From Acidilobus saccharovorans 345-15 (GTDB taxonomy: Archaea; Thermoproteota; Thermoprotei_A; Sulfolobales; Acidilobaceae), in the NCBI RefSeq assembly GCF_000144915.1, contig NC_014374.1, positions 124,001-188,000 on the forward strand: a DNA stretch of 64,000 nucleotides. Reading direction: 5' to 3'. Positions within the stretch are counted from its first letter, which is position 1; each line of letters begins with the position of its first letter. The position numbers and the translations under genes were made by a program. Shown in pieces: positions 25,744 through 33,150 of this stretch. The notes under the pieces were generated by a model, which worked only from the letters and a program-made list of their open reading frames with translations, was not told the origin of the DNA and did no database searches.

Positions 25744-26049
25744 ATGTCTGAGAACATAGAGTGTGGGGGACTGCCTCCTGAGATCTGTGAGCAGCTTAAC
25801 GCAGAGCAGCAGATTATTAAGATAAGACTTGAGGTAAGGAAGTTCAACAAGCAGGTCACAGTAATCGAGGGCATAGACAGCAAGCAGTTCAACCTCAAGG
25901 AGATAGCTTCAAAGCTGAAGAGCGAGCTGGCGGCCGGCGGCACCTATAAGGATGGAAGAATAGAGATACAGGGCGACCACAGGAGAAGGGTCAAAGAGAT
26001 CCTCGTCAGGATGGGCTTCCCTGAGGAGAACATAATGATAATAGAGTAA
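25744..26049 (+). CDS. Translation initiation factor aIF1 (SUI1 family)
   Basis: A 101-residue SUI1 protein. The core [52 protein letters not shown] and [16 protein letters not shown] is the complete eIF1 fold. It controls start-codon selection on the small ribosomal subunit. A GGAGGGG ribosome site lies 15-20 bases before the ATG. The N-terminal 18 residues are Cys-containing ([11 protein letters not shown]), as seen in some crenarchaeal homologues. A T6 run ends the gene before the cobalamin operon. Confidence 0.95.
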
Positions 26050-26081: not shown

Positions 26082-26090
26082 TTTTTTAAA
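26082..26090 (+). promoter_or_regulatory. T-run terminator of aIF1 overlapping a TATA box of the cobalamin operon
   Basis: CTTTTTTAAATG serves as a T6 stop for aIF1 and as a TATA-like element. If used as TATA, transcription would begin near 26108, downstream of the ATG at 26090. That favours TTG 26123 as start of the first cobalamin gene. Confidence 0.45.
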
Positions 26091-27139
26091 TGGCTGGCTA
26101 CCCTAGCCAGCCAGGGACAGCGTTGAGGCCGATAGCCGTCTACGTGGGCGGCTCAACTCTTACCTCCACAATCCCAGGCCTCAGCATAGCCGGCCCCTCC
26201 CCAGAGGGGACCCTCTACACCCCCACGCTCGACCTTGAGTACCTGACGCTCGGGCTTCCCAGGACCATGAATGTGATTCCCATGACTCCTGACGGCCTGC
26301 CGACGCCAGCACTCATAACCAGGGCCGCGCTTGAGCTCATCAAGGTCCCTTACCTTGTCGTTGACGCCGGCACCTACTATGGAATAAAGGCGCCGCACGT
26401 GAGGCTTCCCAGCGCTAGACATGGGGGAAATATAGCCGAGGGGCCTGCGATGCCGAGGGGCACCGCCAGGTCCCTCTTTGAGGAGGCGAGGACCTTGGGG
26501 AGGCTCATATCAAGGGGCCACGACCTCGTCCTCATAGGTGAGACCATACCTGGCGGGACCACGGTGGCCGCGGCAATAATGAGCGCGGCCGGCCTGGACG
26601 GCGTGAGCTACGTGAGCAGCGCCTCCCCTGACAACCCCAAGGACCTGAAGCGCCAGGTGGTCTCTAAGGCGCTCAGCAGGGTCAGCGAGGGGTCAGACAT
26701 ATTCAGCATAGTTGACGCCGTTGGCGACCCTGTTCACGTGACCATGGCAGGCGTGGCCCTCGGGGCTATGGAGGAGGGGGCCATGGCTGTGTTGGCCGGG
26801 GGCACCCAGATGGGGGCGGTCCTTGCAATCCTCAAGGGAGTTGGCGCGGACACCAGTAAGGTCTCGCTGTGGACGACCAAGTGGATCCTTAACGACGAGA
26901 CGTCAAACATAAGGGCCATAGCCGAGGCCTTTGACGTCAGGGACCTGGAGGGATCCGAGGTAGACTTTTCCGACTCGCCGTTTGAGGGGCTGAGGATGTT
27001 TGAGAGGGGCTTCGTTAAGGAGGGCGTCGGCGCTGGGGGCACCATGGTTTTGGCCGCCAAGATGGGATTTGACGCGAACAGCGTCAAGTCGGCCATATAC
27101 TCCGAGTACAAGAGGCTAAGGAACCTTGGCAGCGCTTGA
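26090..27139 (+). CDS. cobT: CobT-like nicotinate-nucleotide:base phosphoribosyltransferase
   Basis: A 349-residue member of the archaeal CobT-like family. Segments HGGNIAEGPAM, GETIPGGTTVAAAIMSAAG near 150-168 and the Gly-rich GTQMGAVLAIL near 240 fit the fold. CobT makes alpha-ribazole phosphate from a base (such as dimethylbenzimidazole or adenine) and nicotinate mononucleotide for the lower ligand of cobalamin. The surrounding genes complete that branch. The frame opens at ATG 26090, but TTG 26123, preceded by CCAGGGACAGCG, fits the promoter better. Overlap with the next gene is 14 bases. Confidence 0.85.
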   Translation: MAGYPSQPGTALRPIAVYVGGSTLTSTIPGLSIAGPSPEGTLYTPTLDLEYLTLGLPRTMNVIPMTPDGLPTPALITRAALELIKVPYLVVDAGTYYGIKAPHVRLPSARHGGNIAEGPAMPRGTARSLFEEARTLGRLISRGHDLVLIGETIPGGTTVAAAIMSAAGLDGVSYVSSASPDNPKDLKRQVVSKALSRVSEGSDIFSIVDAVGDPVHVTMAGVALGAMEEGAMAVLAGGTQMGAVLAILKGVGADTSKVSLWTTKWILNDETSNIRAIAEAFDVRDLEGSEVDFSDSPFEGLRMFERGFVKEGVGAGGTMVLAAKMGFDANSVKSAIYSEYKRLRNLGSA

Positions 27140-28208
27140 GCTGGGCGACAGGTACCTTATAGTGAACTTCGGCGCCCCCAGGCACATACTTACCACGGCC
27201 CACCCCGAAGGCCTGGTGATGGCCTCGAAGGTTGCAATTTACCAGGTAACAGACTCCGACGACCTTTCAAGGCCTGAGAGGTTCAAGGAGGAGGTCAGGA
27301 GGGCCCTGGGCCTCGGCGGGAGCGACCCGGTGATGCTCACCGCGGCCGACGTTAGCAAGTATAGGAGCGCCGTCGAGGGCAACTATGGGGTCGTTGCCAC
27401 AGTGGGCCTCTCTCACCCCTCATGCCACGACATGAGGTCGACGTACGTCCCCCTTATGCCATCAACTATAAACATAGTTGCCTGGGTGCCCGACAGGCTG
27501 ACGGCGTCAGCCATGGTAGACCTCCTCAGGGTCGTGGCGGAGACGAAGGCTGCAGCCTCGGCGGACCTGATGCTCAGGTGCGACGGCGGGAGGGCCACGG
27601 GCACCGTGAGCGACGCCATAGCTGTGGCCGCCACCCTAGATCCCTCAGGAGCCCTGTGGGCTGGGCAGGCAACCACTGTAGGCTCCAAGGTGGCGTCCCT
27701 TGTCTACAGGGCTCTCGTGTCAGAGAAGCCCTCCCGCGAGCAGGTGCTCTCGTGGGCGCTGGGCCTCAGCCTCGAGGAGCTAGTCGATGACGCCATGAAG
27801 CTCTACAGGTCAGCCCCAGTGCCCGGCGTGGCTGAGGGCAAGGTTAAAGAAATGGTCGCACGAGAGCTCAGCCGAATACTTCAGGACCCGAACGTCTGGG
27901 CCTTCATAGTGGCCGCCAGGGAGAACGACATCAGGGGACAGGAGGGCCTGCTGCCTGGCCTCGGTTCCGATGAGTTCGCAGCCGACACCAAGAAGGTTAT
28001 AGCCGATGAGCTGCTGGCCACAGCGCTCAGCCTCTACATAAACGGCTTCAAGGCTCTGACCGCCACGTACTGGGCTGACGCCATGAAGGACAGGCTCGGC
28101 CTTAAACTGGCCTCGCTGCCGATGTTCGAGGACGACATAGCTGCGTCCCTGGCGGCCTCAGCCCTCTCGAGGGTCTACGACAGGCTCCTGGGCGAGGGCC
28201 ATGATTGA
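27126..28208 (+). CDS. cbiS: CbiS-type fusion: adenosylcobinamide amidohydrolase (CbiZ) plus CobZ/PgpA-like phosphatase
   Basis: A 360-residue two-domain protein. Residues 1-205 match CbiZ (SRPERFKEEVRRAL absent from most; NYGVVATVGLSHPSC, TINIVAWVP and a long helical end), which removes the lower loop from pseudocobalamin-type precursors so that they can be remodelled. Residues 215-360 match the CobZ/phosphatidylglycerophosphatase-A-like fold, with the C-terminal EDDIAASLAASALSRVYDRLL helix. CobZ removes the phosphate of alpha-ribazole phosphate. The same fusion, CbiS, is known from Methanopyrus. Which bases are involved is inferred. It overlaps cobY by eight bases. Confidence 0.8.
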   Translation: MAALELGDRYLIVNFGAPRHILTTAHPEGLVMASKVAIYQVTDSDDLSRPERFKEEVRRALGLGGSDPVMLTAADVSKYRSAVEGNYGVVATVGLSHPSCHDMRSTYVPLMPSTINIVAWVPDRLTASAMVDLLRVVAETKAAASADLMLRCDGGRATGTVSDAIAVAATLDPSGALWAGQATTVGSKVASLVYRALVSEKPSREQVLSWALGLSLEELVDDAMKLYRSAPVPGVAEGKVKEMVARELSRILQDPNVWAFIVAARENDIRGQEGLLPGLGSDEFAADTKKVIADELLATALSLYINGFKALTATYWADAMKDRLGLKLASLPMFEDDIAASLAASALSRVYDRLLGEGHD

Positions 28209-28716
28209 GGTGGCGGCCATAATGGCCGGAGGCCTTGGGTCAAGGCTTGGAGGCCCCTGGAAGCCCACGGTTAACGTCTGCGGGAGGCCCCTCATAAGCT
28301 ACGTTATTGATGCCGTCTCGCCAGTGTCAAGGCTCGCGCTAATAGTGACTTCACCCGCGTCCTCGAGCTACCTGAGGGGGCTCTCGCTGCCGCCCAGCTT
28401 CGCTGAACTTATGCTGGATGGCAGCGGCTACGGCTATGACCTTGGAAGGCTGCTTAACGTCGTGAGGCCGAGGCCCCTGCTGGTGCTTCCGGCGGACCTT
28501 TATGGCCTGAGGGCCAGGGACCTGGAGGAGGCCTGCCGCGTGAGCCTTAGGGTCGCGGAGCCCGTGGTGACTGTGAGGGCGCGCGGAGAGTACGTCGGCA
28601 TTTCCATCTTCAAGGGCTACAGCTACGATGAGTGGGCTGACGTAGATATTGACATGGACGTGATAAATGTTAACGACGGTGAGTCGCTTGAGGAGGCCCG
28701 CGGCAGGTGTAAATAG
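28201..28716 (+). CDS. cobY: Adenosylcobinamide-phosphate guanylyltransferase CobY
   Basis: A 171-residue nucleotidyltransferase. It has the sugar-nucleotide type signature MAGGLGSRLGGPWKPTVNVCGRPL at residues 9-32, and it lacks the kinase P-loop of the bacterial CobU. CobY is the archaeal non-orthologous replacement and forms AdoCbi-GDP from AdoCbi-phosphate and GTP. The start ATG overlaps the end of the CbiS gene; its 3' end overlaps the next frame by up to 50 bases, or 29 if the TTG start of that gene is used. Confidence 0.9.
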   Translation: MIEVAAIMAGGLGSRLGGPWKPTVNVCGRPLISYVIDAVSPVSRLALIVTSPASSSYLRGLSLPPSFAELMLDGSGYGYDLGRLLNVVRPRPLLVLPADLYGLRARDLEEACRVSLRVAEPVVTVRARGEYVGISIFKGYSYDEWADVDIDMDVINVNDGESLEEARGRCK

Positions 28717-29764
28717 AGCCCATGGGGGAGCGGCTCCCCCTGGGGCCCTGGACTTCAGCGCCCCAGCGAACCCCCTGGGGCCTCCGCCTGGGCTGAGGGA
28801 GGCCGTCAGCGAGTGCGCCGCCCTGGGCTCCTACCTCAGGTACCCCTCCCCAAGTGACTACTTGAACCTCCTGGGAGCGGTCTCCGAGTTCCTGGACGTT
28901 GACGAGGACCACATAGTGCTCTCCAACGGCTCGGCCGAGCTGCTGTCCCTAATACCGCTCTCGCTCAGGGCCAGGAGCCTTATAGTGGTGGAGCCCAACT
29001 TCGGCGACCACGAGCTCCTTGCGAGGGCGACGTCCCTGGAGCTGGTCAGGGTCGTGATGAGGCCCTCGGACAACGCCTTCTCCCTAGACGAAGACGGCGT
29101 CATCAGAGCCGCTAAGGCTGCGAGGGGGCCTGCCGTGCTGGTGCTCTCCAGGCCTAACAACCCCACGGGCCTTACTGTTGATGAGAAGGCCATAGATCGC
29201 ATAGCATCATCCCTGCCCAGGCACGCCTGGATGGTCGTTGATGAGGCCTTCGTGGACCTCTGCCCCAGCTGCCGCAGCCTAGGTGATCGCGACGACATAG
29301 TAGTGCTCAGGTCCTTTACTAAGAGCCTCGCGTCGCCGGGCCTCAGGCTGGGGGTCATGGTGACCGCAGACAGGAGGGCCCTTGAGGCTATAGCGGGCTC
29401 CATGCAGGCCTGGCCCGTGGACTCTATAACGGCCTGCTCGCTCTCCAAGGTCCTTGCCCTTAAGTCAACGGCGCTTCACGTGGAACGGGGGAAGGAGATA
29501 GTTAGGCAGGAGCTGCCCAGGGTTACATCGGCCCTGAGGTCCATGGGGCTCAAGGCCTTTGACTCCTCGGCCCCATATGTTTTGGTAAGACATACGCTGC
29601 CAAACCCTCAGTTCCAGAGGTCCCTGCTGGCTCACGGCTTTTACGTCAGGGACGCCTCCACGTTCTACTCCCTTGACAGCCATTACTCAAGGATATCGAT
29701 AAGGTCGCCTGCGGAGAACGACGCCATCTTAAAGGCCCTCGAGGTGGTCATGGGTTGGGCCTGA
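28688..29764 (+). CDS. cobD: L-threonine-phosphate decarboxylase, CobD type (PLP fold I)
   Basis: A PLP enzyme of about 358 residues related to histidinol-phosphate aminotransferases. Motifs are NRAHGGAAPPGALDFSAPANP near the N-terminus, LSRPNNPTG, VVDEAFVDL and the Schiff-base Lys in RSFTKSLASPGLRLG. The HGG-x-LDFS lead and the operon context point to threonine-phosphate decarboxylase, which supplies aminopropanol phosphate for the corrin side chain. A histidinol-phosphate aminotransferase cannot be excluded. The open frame begins at ATG 28667; I prefer TTG 28688, in a GA-rich stretch inside cobY, since the preceding residues carry no conservation. Confidence 0.8.
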   Translation: MRRPAAGVNRAHGGAAPPGALDFSAPANPLGPPPGLREAVSECAALGSYLRYPSPSDYLNLLGAVSEFLDVDEDHIVLSNGSAELLSLIPLSLRARSLIVVEPNFGDHELLARATSLELVRVVMRPSDNAFSLDEDGVIRAAKAARGPAVLVLSRPNNPTGLTVDEKAIDRIASSLPRHAWMVVDEAFVDLCPSCRSLGDRDDIVVLRSFTKSLASPGLRLGVMVTADRRALEAIAGSMQAWPVDSITACSLSKVLALKSTALHVERGKEIVRQELPRVTSALRSMGLKAFDSSAPYVLVRHTLPNPQFQRSLLAHGFYVRDASTFYSLDSHYSRISIRSPAENDAILKALEVVMGWA

Positions 29765-30477
29765 GGGACCTCCTGGCCCTGTTCACAAGGCTCCCCGTGG
29801 GGTCTGGGGACCTGGAGGCGGCCGCCTCGAGCTTCTACATGGTGCCCATAGTGGGCCTGGCGGAGGGCGTCATAGTGTCGCTCGTGGGCTTCGCGGTTTC
29901 AGCTGTTAAGCCAGCGCCTATGCTAGCAGCGGCGCTGATGCTAATAGCTCACGTTGCCGTGACCGGCGGGCTTCACCTGGACGGGCTGGCCGACTACAGC
30001 GACGTCCTGGGCTCAGGCCTCAGGGGTGAGGAGGCAGTTAGGGTCCTCAAGGATCCCAGGAAGGGCTCGTTCGCTATCATGGCAGTCGTGGTGGCCCTGG
30101 TGGCCAGGCTCTCGGCGTTCTACTACCTCTACAGGTGCCCAGCAATCATAGTTGCCGCGTACGCGTCGTCCCTGGAGGCCTCCTTTGTGGCCGCCAGGGC
30201 AGGTGTCCAGGAGCCCTACGAGGGCATGGCCTCCCGCTTCGAGAGGGCTGCCAGGGACGGCCGACAGCTGCTGCTAAACGCGCTGACCTACATAGCAATA
30301 ATGACAGCTATAGCTGTCTTAAGGCCGCTCAGCCTCATAGGTGCAGCGGCGCTGCTGGCGGGCTTCCTGCTCGCGGCCGACGCGAACTCAAGGCTTGGTT
30401 TCGTCAACGGTGACGTGATGGGCGCTTCCATAGAGGTCGGCGGAGTGGTGGCCCTGGTCCTGGGTGCCCTGGCTTGA
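29755..30477 (+). CDS. cobS: Cobalamin synthase CobS
   Basis: A 240-residue integral membrane enzyme joining AdoCbi-GDP and alpha-ribazole. The catalytic Mg-binding segment GGLHLDGLADYSDVLGSG near residue 62 and the KDPRKGSFAIMAVV stretch near 100 are intact. About six hydrophobic segments follow. It overlaps its neighbours by 10 bases upstream and 4 downstream, as expected in a tightly packed operon. Confidence 0.9.
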   Translation: MGLRDLLALFTRLPVGSGDLEAAASSFYMVPIVGLAEGVIVSLVGFAVSAVKPAPMLAAALMLIAHVAVTGGLHLDGLADYSDVLGSGLRGEEAVRVLKDPRKGSFAIMAVVVALVARLSAFYYLYRCPAIIVAAYASSLEASFVAARAGVQEPYEGMASRFERAARDGRQLLLNALTYIAIMTAIAVLRPLSLIGAAALLAGFLLAADANSRLGFVNGDVMGASIEVGGVVALVLGALA

Positions 30478-31418
30478 TGCTGCCCAGCTTCCTTTACCCA
30501 GGTCCCTTGGAGCTCCTCTCAGCCCTGGCCCTCGCGCTCGTCCTTGACATAGTCTACCCCTACCACAGCGGCTTCATGCTGATGGTACACCCCGTCCACA
30601 CATCCTACTTCATGGCGCTCAGGCTCTACAGGCCGTTCTCGTCGCGTGCCCGCGGAGCTATGATATGGGCTGCGGTCATGTCGTCTCACCTGGTGGCTTA
30701 CGCAGCGGCGCTCTACCTGGCCTACAGGCTCAGCCCCATCGCGTGGATTATTGTGGCGGGCTACATAACTAAGACGTCGGCCTCCCTGAGGCTGCTCATA
30801 GACGAGGTCAACGGCGCGGGCAGGGCGCTTGAGGAGGGCGACCTGGGCAGGGCCAGGGCCCTAGCCCAGGGCCTCGTGAGGAGGGACCTAAGCGTGGAGG
30901 ACGCGGGCCACGTGGCATCAGCGGCCATAGAGTCCCTGGCCGAGAGCCTCAATGACGGCTTCGTCTCCCCCCTCTTCTGGTATGCAGTCCTTGGACCCCT
31001 GGGGGCCCTGGCCCAGAGGCTCGTCAACACGTTGGACGGGGCGCTGGGATTCAAGGACCCCGAGCACCTGAAGGTGGGGTGGGCGAGCGCCCGGGCTGAT
31101 ACCATAGTTAACTACATACCCGCGAGGCTCACGGCCGCGCTGATAGTCATAGCCTCCGCGAGGTCCGCCAGGAGGGCGGCAGCCGCGTGGGCCTCGTGTT
31201 CAGGGCTGACAGAGAGCCTGAACGCCGGCGCACCGATGTCGGCCATGGCGGGAAGCCTTGGAGTGACCCTGGAGAAGAGGGGCTCCTACACCCTCTGCCC
31301 TGAGTTCGGCAGGCTCCCAGGAGCTCAGGACATAAGGGGGTCTGTCAGGGTCGCCTTAGCGGCGGCGTCGCTTATGGTGGGCCTTGAGGCTATTATTTTA
31401 GCCCTGCTGCGCGCCTGA
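30474..31418 (+). CDS. cbiB: Adenosylcobinamide-phosphate synthase CbiB
   Basis: A 314-residue membrane protein. It has the family's early HPVHTSYFM region near residue 40, the LVRRDLSVEDAGHVASAAIESLAESLNDGFVSPLFWYAVLG segment near 130-175, and AARLTAALIV later on. CbiB attaches aminopropanol phosphate, the product of the CobD-type enzyme two genes upstream, to adenosylcobyric acid. Its ATG overlaps the end of cobS. With these genes present, cobinamide or cobyric acid can be finished; no corrin-ring genes are in the window. Confidence 0.88.
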   Translation: MMLPSFLYPGPLELLSALALALVLDIVYPYHSGFMLMVHPVHTSYFMALRLYRPFSSRARGAMIWAAVMSSHLVAYAAALYLAYRLSPIAWIIVAGYITKTSASLRLLIDEVNGAGRALEEGDLGRARALAQGLVRRDLSVEDAGHVASAAIESLAESLNDGFVSPLFWYAVLGPLGALAQRLVNTLDGALGFKDPEHLKVGWASARADTIVNYIPARLTAALIVIASARSARRAAAAWASCSGLTESLNAGAPMSAMAGSLGVTLEKRGSYTLCPEFGRLPGAQDIRGSVRVALAAASLMVGLEAIILALLRA

Positions 31419-31437
31419 TCGCGGAAGTGAAGCCAGC

Positions 31438-32460
31438 TTGAGCTGCGAGGCCCTGGGCCTCAGGCTCCTTAGCCGTGTGGGCGACCTGCTCAGGAGGAGC
31501 TCCTGCGACTGCGTGCTTTTCAGCGGCGGCATAGACACCAGCTTTGTCACCCTCGCAGCCGTGGAGGCCGGCCTGAGGCCTAAGCTGATCACAGTCCTCT
31601 TTCAGGGGTCCGCCGATGAGCCATACGCTGAGTACGTCTCCAAGGTGCTTGGGCTTGACCTAATTAAAGTGAGGCCGACCCCCGAGGAGGCCCTTGAGTG
31701 CATCGACGTCGCCCTAAGGTCGATGGTTACCATAGACCCCATTGAGGCTGTCTCGGGAAGCGCGGTGTGTCTCGGGCTCAGGAAGGCCAGGGAGCTCGGC
31801 TGCAGGTGCGTGGCAACCGGCGACGGAGGGGACGAGCTATTCATTGGCTATGACTTCCTGTTCGGCAGGGACAGGAATTACCTTGATGGCTGGCTCAGCA
31901 GGGTGGCCAGCAGCGCCTTCTTCAACTCAGTTCCCATATCAGCCCAGCTCGGCGTCACCGTGCTCCTGCCCCTCTACAGCGATGATGCCAAGGCAATCTC
32001 GCGGGAGGCCTTTAATGAGGGGTGCGACGTCAGGGATGTTAACGGAACCACCTACGGCAAGTACCTCATGAGGAGGGTCCTGGAGCTCAAGGGCCTCAGC
32101 CTGGTGGCCTGGAGGAGGAAGGACCCCATAACCAGGGGCAGCGGCTCAGAGCGGCTGCTGGGCCTCATGTCGTCCCTGGTGGGAGATGAAGAGGTCAGGA
32201 GTCTGACCTCGCTTACGGGCGTGCTGGTGCCCTCAAGGCCTCACGCCTACCTGCTGGGCAGGAGGCTGTCCCTCAGGCTCCCTATGCCTGGCAAGGCGAC
32301 GAGGAACCTCTGTCCCATATGCGGGTCCGAGCTTAGGGACGGCTTCTGCAGGTTCTGCGGCGCCTACATCGACGAGGCAGGGAGCCTCTCCGTCTACTCC
32401 GACGACGCGTCCAACATATCTGGGGCCTCCAGGCTCCTCTCAAAGGGCCCTAAGGGCTGA
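31438..32460 (+). CDS. Asparagine-synthetase-like PP-loop protein with C-terminal zinc ribbon
   Basis: A 340-residue protein. Residues 10-240 are the ATP-pyrophosphatase half of asparagine synthetase: SGGIDTSFVTLAA (about 27), GDGGDELFIGYDFLFGR (about 128) and LRRVLELKG-type helices. The N-terminal glutaminase domain is missing. Residues 287-312 carry a zinc ribbon (CPICGSEL, FCRFCG). Loss of the glutaminase half suggests use of free ammonia or another nucleophile, or a distinct adenylation reaction. It sits 19 bases after cbiB on the same strand, so a role in cobamide amidation or in RNA modification are both conceivable, and neither is shown. TTG start. Confidence 0.75.
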   Translation: MSCEALGLRLLSRVGDLLRRSSCDCVLFSGGIDTSFVTLAAVEAGLRPKLITVLFQGSADEPYAEYVSKVLGLDLIKVRPTPEEALECIDVALRSMVTIDPIEAVSGSAVCLGLRKARELGCRCVATGDGGDELFIGYDFLFGRDRNYLDGWLSRVASSAFFNSVPISAQLGVTVLLPLYSDDAKAISREAFNEGCDVRDVNGTTYGKYLMRRVLELKGLSLVAWRRKDPITRGSGSERLLGLMSSLVGDEEVRSLTSLTGVLVPSRPHAYLLGRRLSLRLPMPGKATRNLCPICGSELRDGFCRFCGAYIDEAGSLSVYSDDASNISGASRLLSKGPKG

Positions 32461-33150
32461 GAGCATGAACCTGGCGTTGCCCAACATCCAGTGGTCGTTG
32501 TTAAAGAAGACGTAGACCTTCCTTGGGCTGAGGGACCTTATGGCGCTGACGTCCTCCATGAGCTCCCTCTCGCTGTAGTTGTAAGCGTACCAGGCGCTCC
32601 TCCCGTGCATCCTGAGGTAGACGATGTCATTGAAGCTCCTTATTATCACCCCGAGCGGCGAGTCCAGCGACACGAACGTGGCCCCCAGCCCCCTGGCCTC
32701 CTCAATGGCTTCCTCGCTGAGCCAGGAGCTGTGCCTGAACTCAAGGGCTGCCCTCGGGCCGAGCCCTGCCCTGGCCAGGAAGTCCCTCAGCCTCCCCAGG
32801 TTCTGCTCGTTAAAGGAGAAGTTCGGGGGCAGCTGAAAGAGGTAGAAGTCTATTACGTTATCCATTGGAGAGAAGAGCTGCCTGAACTTAAGCCAGAGCT
32901 CCTGGGCCCTCTCGTTGAGCCTGTGCACGTGGGTTATCAGCCTGCTCACCTTGATGGACCACCTGAGGCCTGAGCCCCTCCTGGCCCAGCCCTTGACCTG
33001 CGATGGGAATGGGAACCTGTAGAACGAGGCGTTGAGCTCCACGGCGTTGAGGCCGCTTTTGCTCACGTACCAGTCAAGGCTGCCGTCCTCGTTCCAGTCG
33101 TAGAGCCAGCCAGAGGTCCCGACGTAGACCTCCAAGCCCTGAGCCTCCAC
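32440..33150 (-). CDS. DUF72 family protein (TIM-barrel type)
   Basis: A 236-residue DUF72 protein. The N-terminal VGTSGWLYDW, the VELNASFYRFP segment (near residue 37), WSIKVSRLITH and the late YLRMHGR and VYVFFNNDHW motifs are all present. The function is unproven; the fold resembles sugar-phosphate-metabolising barrels. It converges on the PP-loop gene with a 21-base overlap and stands alone on this strand. The first residue may be ATG 33150, or a later GTG at VGTSGW. Confidence 0.85.
   Translation of the reverse strand: MEAQGLEVYVGTSGWLYDWNEDGSLDWYVSKSGLNAVELNASFYRFPFPSQVKGWARRGSGLRWSIKVSRLITHVHRLNERAQELWLKFRQLFSPMDNVIDFYLFQLPPNFSFNEQNLGRLRDFLARAGLGPRAALEFRHSSWLSEEAIEEARGLGATFVSLDSPLGVIIRSFNDIVYLRMHGRSAWYAYNYSERELMEDVSAIRSLSPRKVYVFFNNDHWMLGNARFMLSALRAL

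Follow-up and report, generated by a model that had tools for sequence, protein, structure and literature searches.

AsnB-type enzymes form an acyl-AMP, which is then attacked by ammonia. The beta-lactam synthetases use the AsnB-type fold with an amine other than ammonia, and both they and the carbapenam synthetases retain an N-terminal glutaminase-like domain. Another PP-loop family, DUF71, includes a subfamily for which a role in (pseudo-)B12 salvage was predicted in 2012, and AsnB-DUF71 fusions were described in a few archaea (PMC3541065). The gene cbiP served as one of 11 cobalamin-synthesis markers in a study of thaumarchaeota (PMC4303638), and an asparagine synthase was noted near an unrelated putative B12-dependent protein (PMC2667541). 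The available part of PMC3541065 yielded no mention of the family described below as a B12 gene, those of PMC8305020, PMC5481537, and PMC11615228 held nothing decisive on it, and no description of it in B12 metabolism was found in the open-licence literature searched.

The window analysed here is a stretch of 64,000 nt from Acidilobus saccharovorans 345-15 (NC_014374.1, positions 124,001-188,000, forward strand; GCF_000144915.1), whose archaeal genome is complete at 1,496,453 bases. An ORF on the plus strand (31438-32460; TTG start, 340 aa) encodes an AsnB-like PP-loop ligase with a C-terminal zinc ribbon and without a glutaminase domain, as judged from the ORF, Pfam, alignment, a structure model, and a structure search. 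We refer to this protein and its relatives as PPL. The Pfam model Asn_synthase (PF00733) matched residues 25-147 with 68.1 bits (cut-off 21), which places PPL in that superfamily; no other protein of the genome matched PF00733. TIGR01536 (asparagine synthase, glutamine-hydrolysing) gave 43.3 bits vs. an equivalog cut-off of 267.1, and cobQ (TIGR00313) was absent from the NCBIfam scan of PPL. No glutaminase domain was found in PPL, where only 28 residues precede the P-loop. These results bear out the anatomy given in the initial annotation, i.e., an intact PP-loop half, no glutaminase half, and a zinc ribbon at the C-terminus. PPL matches were present in 30 of 48 genomes of the window's taxonomic family, and 41 columns of a 26-member alignment were invariant; together with the confident model described below, they establish PPL as a real gene. 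A scan of genome contigs with PPL returned five bacterial matches of the AsnB type besides two close relatives. The 3' end of PPL overlaps by 21 bases a DUF72 gene on the minus strand (32440-33150), which is a convergent neighbour in several relatives too.

PPL is the last gene of an operon on one strand with the order cobT, cbiZ, cobY, cobD, cobS, cbiB, and PPL. Pfam identified the upstream genes, all on the plus strand, as a cobT-like phosphoribosyltransferase (DBI_PRT; 26090-27139), the adenosylcobinamide amidohydrolase cbiZ (27126-28208), the NTP transferase for adenosylcobinamide phosphate, cobY (28201-28716), a cobD-like class I/II aminotransferase (28667-29764; threonine-phosphate decarboxylase by context), the cobamide-5'-phosphate synthase cobS (29755-30477), and the adenosylcobinamide-phosphate synthase cbiB (CobD_Cbib; 30474-31418). 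The cbiB stop codon and the PPL start are separated by 19 bases (31419-31437), the distance reported in the initial annotation, which had also named CobT, CobY, CobD, CobS, and CbiB as Pfam does; the gene that it called CbiS matched Pfam CbiZ. The product of this gene is 360 aa long, with the CbiZ match confined to residues 15-196 and a C-terminal extension to which Pfam assigns no domain; this extension may correspond to the CobZ-like C-terminal half of CbiS proteins. An eIF1/SUI1 gene (25744-26049) lies directly upstream of cobT, as it does in other family members. Proteins of the CbiC, CbiP, and CbiA types gave no match in the window's genome (CbiP/CobQ searched at E ≤ 1e-10), and the Acidilobus host was taken as salvage-only for cobamide. 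The earlier remark that no enzyme of the operon needs the activity of PPL holds for the operon itself, but the genome has no CbiP, the enzyme that would supply such an activity.

An AlphaFold2 model was built from the 26-member alignment (A1, from which L002, at the same place as L064, L041, with an undetermined residue, and L044, a near copy of L045, had been left out). Mean pLDDT was 95.8 and pTM 0.92. The top structural match was human ASNS (Z 25.9, rmsd 2.9, 284 residues aligned), followed by E. coli AsnB (Z 23.2) and the beta-lactam and carbapenam synthetases (Z about 23); each of these enzymes was matched through its synthetase half. TsnB9 scored Z 18.6 and the next family, LarE, Z 13.6. 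TtuA and NcsA reached about 12, against 25.9 for ASNS, in the comparison with AsnB and tRNA thiolases suggested in the initial annotation. Aligned with the window protein, the 66 relatives are 256-372 aa long, except for three with an N-terminal CobY. Eight residues were invariant in 67/67 members: S29, D33, D60, D132, E133, K208, R212, and K228. The PP-loop SGGIDT (residues 29-34; 31522-31539) also has G31 in all 67 and G30 in 66. D132 and E133 belong to the GDGGDE motif of the AsnB-type synthetase site (residues 128-133, GDGGDEL from 128; 31819-31836), and Lys228 (32119-32121) aligns with Lys449 of the AsnB AWRxK motif. The zinc ribbon CPICG..CRFCG (residues 292-308; 32311-32361) has its four cysteines in 60-61 of the 67; one cob-linked clade lacks it (f2, f3, f5, f7, f10). 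Five additional cysteines (23, 25, 122, 124, and 196), candidate Fe-S ligands, are conserved or nearly so within the window's family and present in just 35-44 of the 67 overall. The aspartate-site Thr-Thr-x-Arg of AsnB is aligned with Ile-Glu-x-Val in the window PPL. Arg325 of E. coli AsnB, which reportedly helps to bind aspartate and to form aspartyl-AMP (PMC12018205), corresponds to Val105 here. We considered this column as clean evidence against aspartate and set it aside: although the window's clade differs from AsnB here, the family as a whole does not, and since 29/67 members have arginine it cannot rule out aspartate family-wide.

The surroundings of PPL were taken for 26 whole-genome loci of the window's family and 40 more, mostly from other families; adding L003 brought the set to 67 loci, which represent 27 families plus one unplaced MAG. 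Within the window's family, PPL stood beside the cobT-cbiZ-cobY-cobD-cobS-cbiB operon in 18 of the 26 loci, in three arrangements: on the same strand after cbiB (14 loci), divergent from cobT (three loci; L049, L050, L061), or convergent with cbiB (L051). One locus (L060) had a CobY-like gene alone, and seven had no cobamide-assembly neighbour. Over all 67 loci, a cobamide-assembly gene was found within 8 kb of PPL in 37, a Btu-type B12-transporter gene in 13, and DUF71, the B12-linked PP-loop family, in 27. At least one of the three was present at 49 loci and none at 18; some of these absences carry little weight because the contigs are short. By our estimate, a stretch of this length covers roughly 1% of a genome of this kind, and chance neighbours should accordingly be few. 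The link of PPL with cobamide genes is not due to chance. In three genomes of three families (L103, L109, L116), CobY and PPL form a single protein of about 530 aa, in which the CobY profile matched with E-values of 2e-29, 9e-24, and 1e-27, respectively. At another locus (L128), the neighbour of PPL is methylmalonyl-CoA epimerase, and mutase and MeaB are close by; these genes belong to a B12-dependent pathway. A link to riboflavin or lower-ligand synthesis through downstream ribB and ribH was considered and set aside; both were matched in 5/28 loci, and it was dropped because they were seen in close relatives only.

The phyletic pattern was examined in 398 Thermoproteota genomes searched for PPL, CbiP/CobQ, CbiB, and CbiC, the last as a marker of de novo corrin synthesis. 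PPL was counted at E ≤ 1e-35, a cut that we placed in a gap between about 1e-28 and 1e-35; 183 genomes passed and G323 (7.9e-26), G111 (1.8e-24), and G207 (1.3e-14) fell below. One CbiP split into three pieces (G411) and two that match the model up to positions 444 and 438 of its 477 (G317 and G373) were counted as full-length, while nineteen genomes with short C-terminal CobQ matches only (E about 1e-11 to 1e-14) were scored as having no CbiP. CbiB was present in 163 of the 183 genomes with PPL vs. 45 of the 215 without it (PPL only, 20; neither, 170). This is not the random spread over cobalamin-free genomes that the initial annotation had named as evidence to the contrary, and its view that the context was suggestive only proved too cautious. 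Its idea that orthologues with the zinc ribbon always adjoin cbiB or cobS did not hold, given the 37/67 loci with an assembly gene nearby and the ribbonless clade.

Among the 208 genomes with cbiB, full-length, glutaminase-bearing CbiP and PPL are mutually exclusive: 39 have full-length CbiP only, 162 PPL only, one has both (G373), and six have neither (G039, which is 95% complete, G111, G207, G239, G252, and G323), so that 201/208 carry exactly one of the two. Fisher's test by genome, which ignores shared ancestry, gave p 1e-34, and a count by family that omitted two mixed families (3 CbiP-only, 21 PPL-only) gave p 5e-4; these p-values overstate the number of independent events because the genomes are related. 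Full CbiP occurred in 24 of the 135 CbiC genomes, none with PPL; 72 had the CbiP N-terminal domain only, 71 of them with PPL, and 39 had no CbiP, 37 of them with PPL. The 73 cbiB genomes without CbiC were taken as salvage-only. Full CbiP was found in 16 of these (one with PPL) and no CbiP in 57 (54 with PPL); therefore, salvage-only genomes too keep one or the other. The two mixed families show switches within families. In f39, G266 has CbiP and G165, G171, and G225 have PPL; in f30, G304 and G308 have PPL, most others CbiP, and G373 both. In a PPL tree of 60 rows, which left out the fragment L097 and 11 close relatives of f1, proteins of the same family mostly grouped together, four bacterial AsnB rows sat on a long branch (2.08), and f14, f46, and f50 clustered with weak support (85/52). 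Many deep forks were poorly supported. L095 of f39 fell inside the f1 clade, and its PPL may have been acquired by horizontal transfer. A bacterial protein among the archaeal rows (L004, Dehalococcoidia) was considered as a counterpart and rejected, as it has no zinc ribbon and no cob gene was seen on its contig.

PPL was also found among genes for the corrin ring. In G110, a ring operon CbiX/C-CbiH-CbiD-CbiT-CbiL-CbiF runs straight on into DUF71 and PPL (CbiX/C, CbiD, CbiF, and DUF71 were confirmed; CbiH, CbiT, and CbiL were named by eye). The ring genes of G088 comprise CbiG, CbiE, CbiX/C, CbiH, CbiD, CbiT, CbiL, and CbiF, and both genomes have CbiB and PPL. No full-length GATase_3 protein was found in these two single-contig genomes, which therefore have no full-length CbiA or CbiP. 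In G116, the genes for PPL and a CbiA (E 5e-154) overlap. Six further full-length GATase_3 proteins that were scanned were all of the CbiA/CfbB type and none was CbiP. G150 has two CbiA, and a pair of cbiA genes was reported in Thermoproteus tenax (PMC3189178). DUF71-B12 tracks PPL loosely; G039 has it without PPL, and none was recognisable in f14, f46, and f50. The window's genome has one B12-type DUF71 (L137:9888-10595; C1:599887-600594; NF052347 over cut-off, motif GENGEYH), at a distance from the cob operon.

We conclude that PPL very probably belongs to cobamide metabolism. As to its reaction, we rate at somewhat better than an even chance that PPL takes the place of CbiP as an AMP-forming ligase that uses ammonia to amidate the side-chain carboxylates of corrinoids. 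This reading draws on the fold and the conserved residues, the genomic linkage, the CobY fusions, the exclusion with full-length CbiP, the corrin-ring context, and the lack in the window's genome of any other PF00733 protein and of CbiC, CbiP, and CbiA-type matches. One of the suggestions in the initial annotation, an amidating enzyme new to cobamide metabolism, is partly supported and is now the reading with the best support. PPL would activate the carboxylates with ATP to give acyl-AMP and PPi, and ammonia would attack the acyl-AMP to yield the amide; since PPL comprises a synthetase half alone, the ammonia would be free or come from a partner. PPL would thereby fill the role of the glutaminase-bearing CbiP/CobQ (b, d, e, and g amides). 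In de novo makers it would complete corrin amidation. Corrinoids that salvage-only hosts import, or that heat has hydrolysed, may have their amides completed or restored by PPL, heat hydrolysis being our assumption, before CbiB, CobY, and CobS build the nucleotide loop. To our knowledge, a corrinoid is far larger than any AsnB-type substrate, which counts against this proposal. A broader proposal, that most cobamide-using Thermoproteota amidate via PPL and that PPL and DUF71 carry out all six corrin amidations in G088 and G110 with no known-type glutamine amidotransferase, is tentative, and we consider it more doubtful than probable. Several observations count against PPL as a CbiP stand-in, i.e., the 18/67 loci with no B12 neighbour, the 20/183 PPL genomes without cbiB, the six cbiB genomes with neither protein, and G373 with both.

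The main problem for the CbiP-substitute reading is the co-occurrence noted above of PPL and the CbiP N-terminal domain. The 71 of 72 de novo genomes with both belong to f14, f46, and f50, families that, judging by the size and content of their genomes, are probably ammonia-oxidiser-like. They keep a conserved domain of about 290 aa with no glutaminase, which adjoins cbiB where positions were compared (for example, G188:C1:1396091-1396828); their PPL lies away from assembly genes (L105, L106, L133, L121, L122, L128). The domain is possibly an ammonia-using CbiP, and if so PPL would be redundant or have another job in these families. Either the domain has another role, or the work is shared, or PPL does something else there. 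The statement that PPL replaces every form of CbiP was therefore given up and the claim narrowed to full-length, glutaminase-bearing CbiP.

Two other readings also keep PPL within cobamide metabolism. PPL could act with DUF71 in the remodelling or salvage of wrong cobamides, or take part in the synthesis or modification of the linker or lower ligand. The predicted role of DUF71 in pseudo-B12 salvage (PMC3541065), its presence within 8 kb of PPL at 27/67 loci, and the 13 loci with transporter genes agree with this, but it leaves unexplained both the exclusion with full CbiP and the PPL of de novo makers without recognisable DUF71-B12 (f14, f46, f50); we regard it as unlikely. We give slightly less credence to PPL as a soluble counterpart of CbiB that joins cobyric acid to (R)-1-amino-2-propanol or its phosphate. 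The substrate of CobY is the CbiB product, and of the three genomes with the CobY-PPL fusion, two (G274 and G380) gave no CbiB match; nor did G078 and G309, which have PPL with CobS and CobY. The AsnB fold can take an amine other than ammonia, as in the beta-lactam synthetases. However, cbiB is also present in most PPL genomes and the gene that PPL excludes is CbiP, and the overlap with CbiA in G116 and the ring genes ahead of PPL in G110 are better suited to side-chain amidation.

The remaining two readings place PPL outside cobamide metabolism. Asparagine synthetases are closest to PPL by fold and sequence, and arginine occupies the Arg325 column in 29/67 relatives, as would suit an ammonia-dependent asparagine synthetase with an incidental cob neighbourhood. 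The score of 43 bits vs. an equivalog cut-off of 267 and the altered aspartate site of the window PPL speak against this, two GatB-type proteins in the genome probably point to tRNA-dependent Asn/Gln formation, and such a synthetase would give no reason for the varied linkage, the CobY fusions, or the CbiP exclusion; we consider it quite improbable. Still less credible is a tRNA-modifying or thiolating PP-loop enzyme, the other role proposed in the initial annotation, for which we found no support. The zinc ribbon, the cysteines conserved in the window's family, and the structural matches to TtuA and NcsA could be read this way, but those cysteines are missing from many members (35-44/67 have them), a cob-linked clade lacks the ribbon, ASNS matches twice as well, and no tRNA-modification gene recurred among the identified neighbour clusters of PPL.

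If PPL does stand in for CbiP, the missing CbiP-type enzyme would be identified across much of an archaeal phylum, and a role would be assigned to a widespread protein recognised by profile libraries only as asparagine synthase. It would represent a second corrin-amidation chemistry, AMP-forming and ammonia-using, that is open to a defined test. Where the B12 self-sufficiency of archaea has been judged with CbiP as a marker, the conclusions would be corrected, and a partner would be suggested for the still unassigned DUF71-B12 protein.

Compared with known systems, PPL shares with the AsnB/ASNS synthetase domain (PF00733) the fold over residues 1-312, the PP-loop, the GD/E-G-x-DE motif, and the Lys449 equivalent; it differs in the absence of the N-terminal glutaminase domain, the C-terminal zinc ribbon, the linkage to cobamide genes, and, in the window PPL, the changed aspartate-site residues. 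With CbiP/CobQ (TIGR00313) it has in common the same genomic place and, as proposed here, the same reaction class, whereas the two families are unrelated by profile search, CbiP consisting of ATPase and glutaminase domains and PPL of a PP-loop domain and a zinc ribbon. Like DUF71-B12 (PF01902 subfamily; NF052347, TTX_0299 family), PPL is a PP-loop protein tied to B12 salvage genes, but DUF71-B12 is a PP-loop family of the diphthine-ammonia ligase type, about 215 aa long, and is not beside PPL in the window. The beta-lactam and carbapenam synthetases offer a parallel for an AsnB-type fold turned to non-aspartate carboxylates; unlike PPL as proposed, they make an intramolecular amide, and they have no zinc ribbon.
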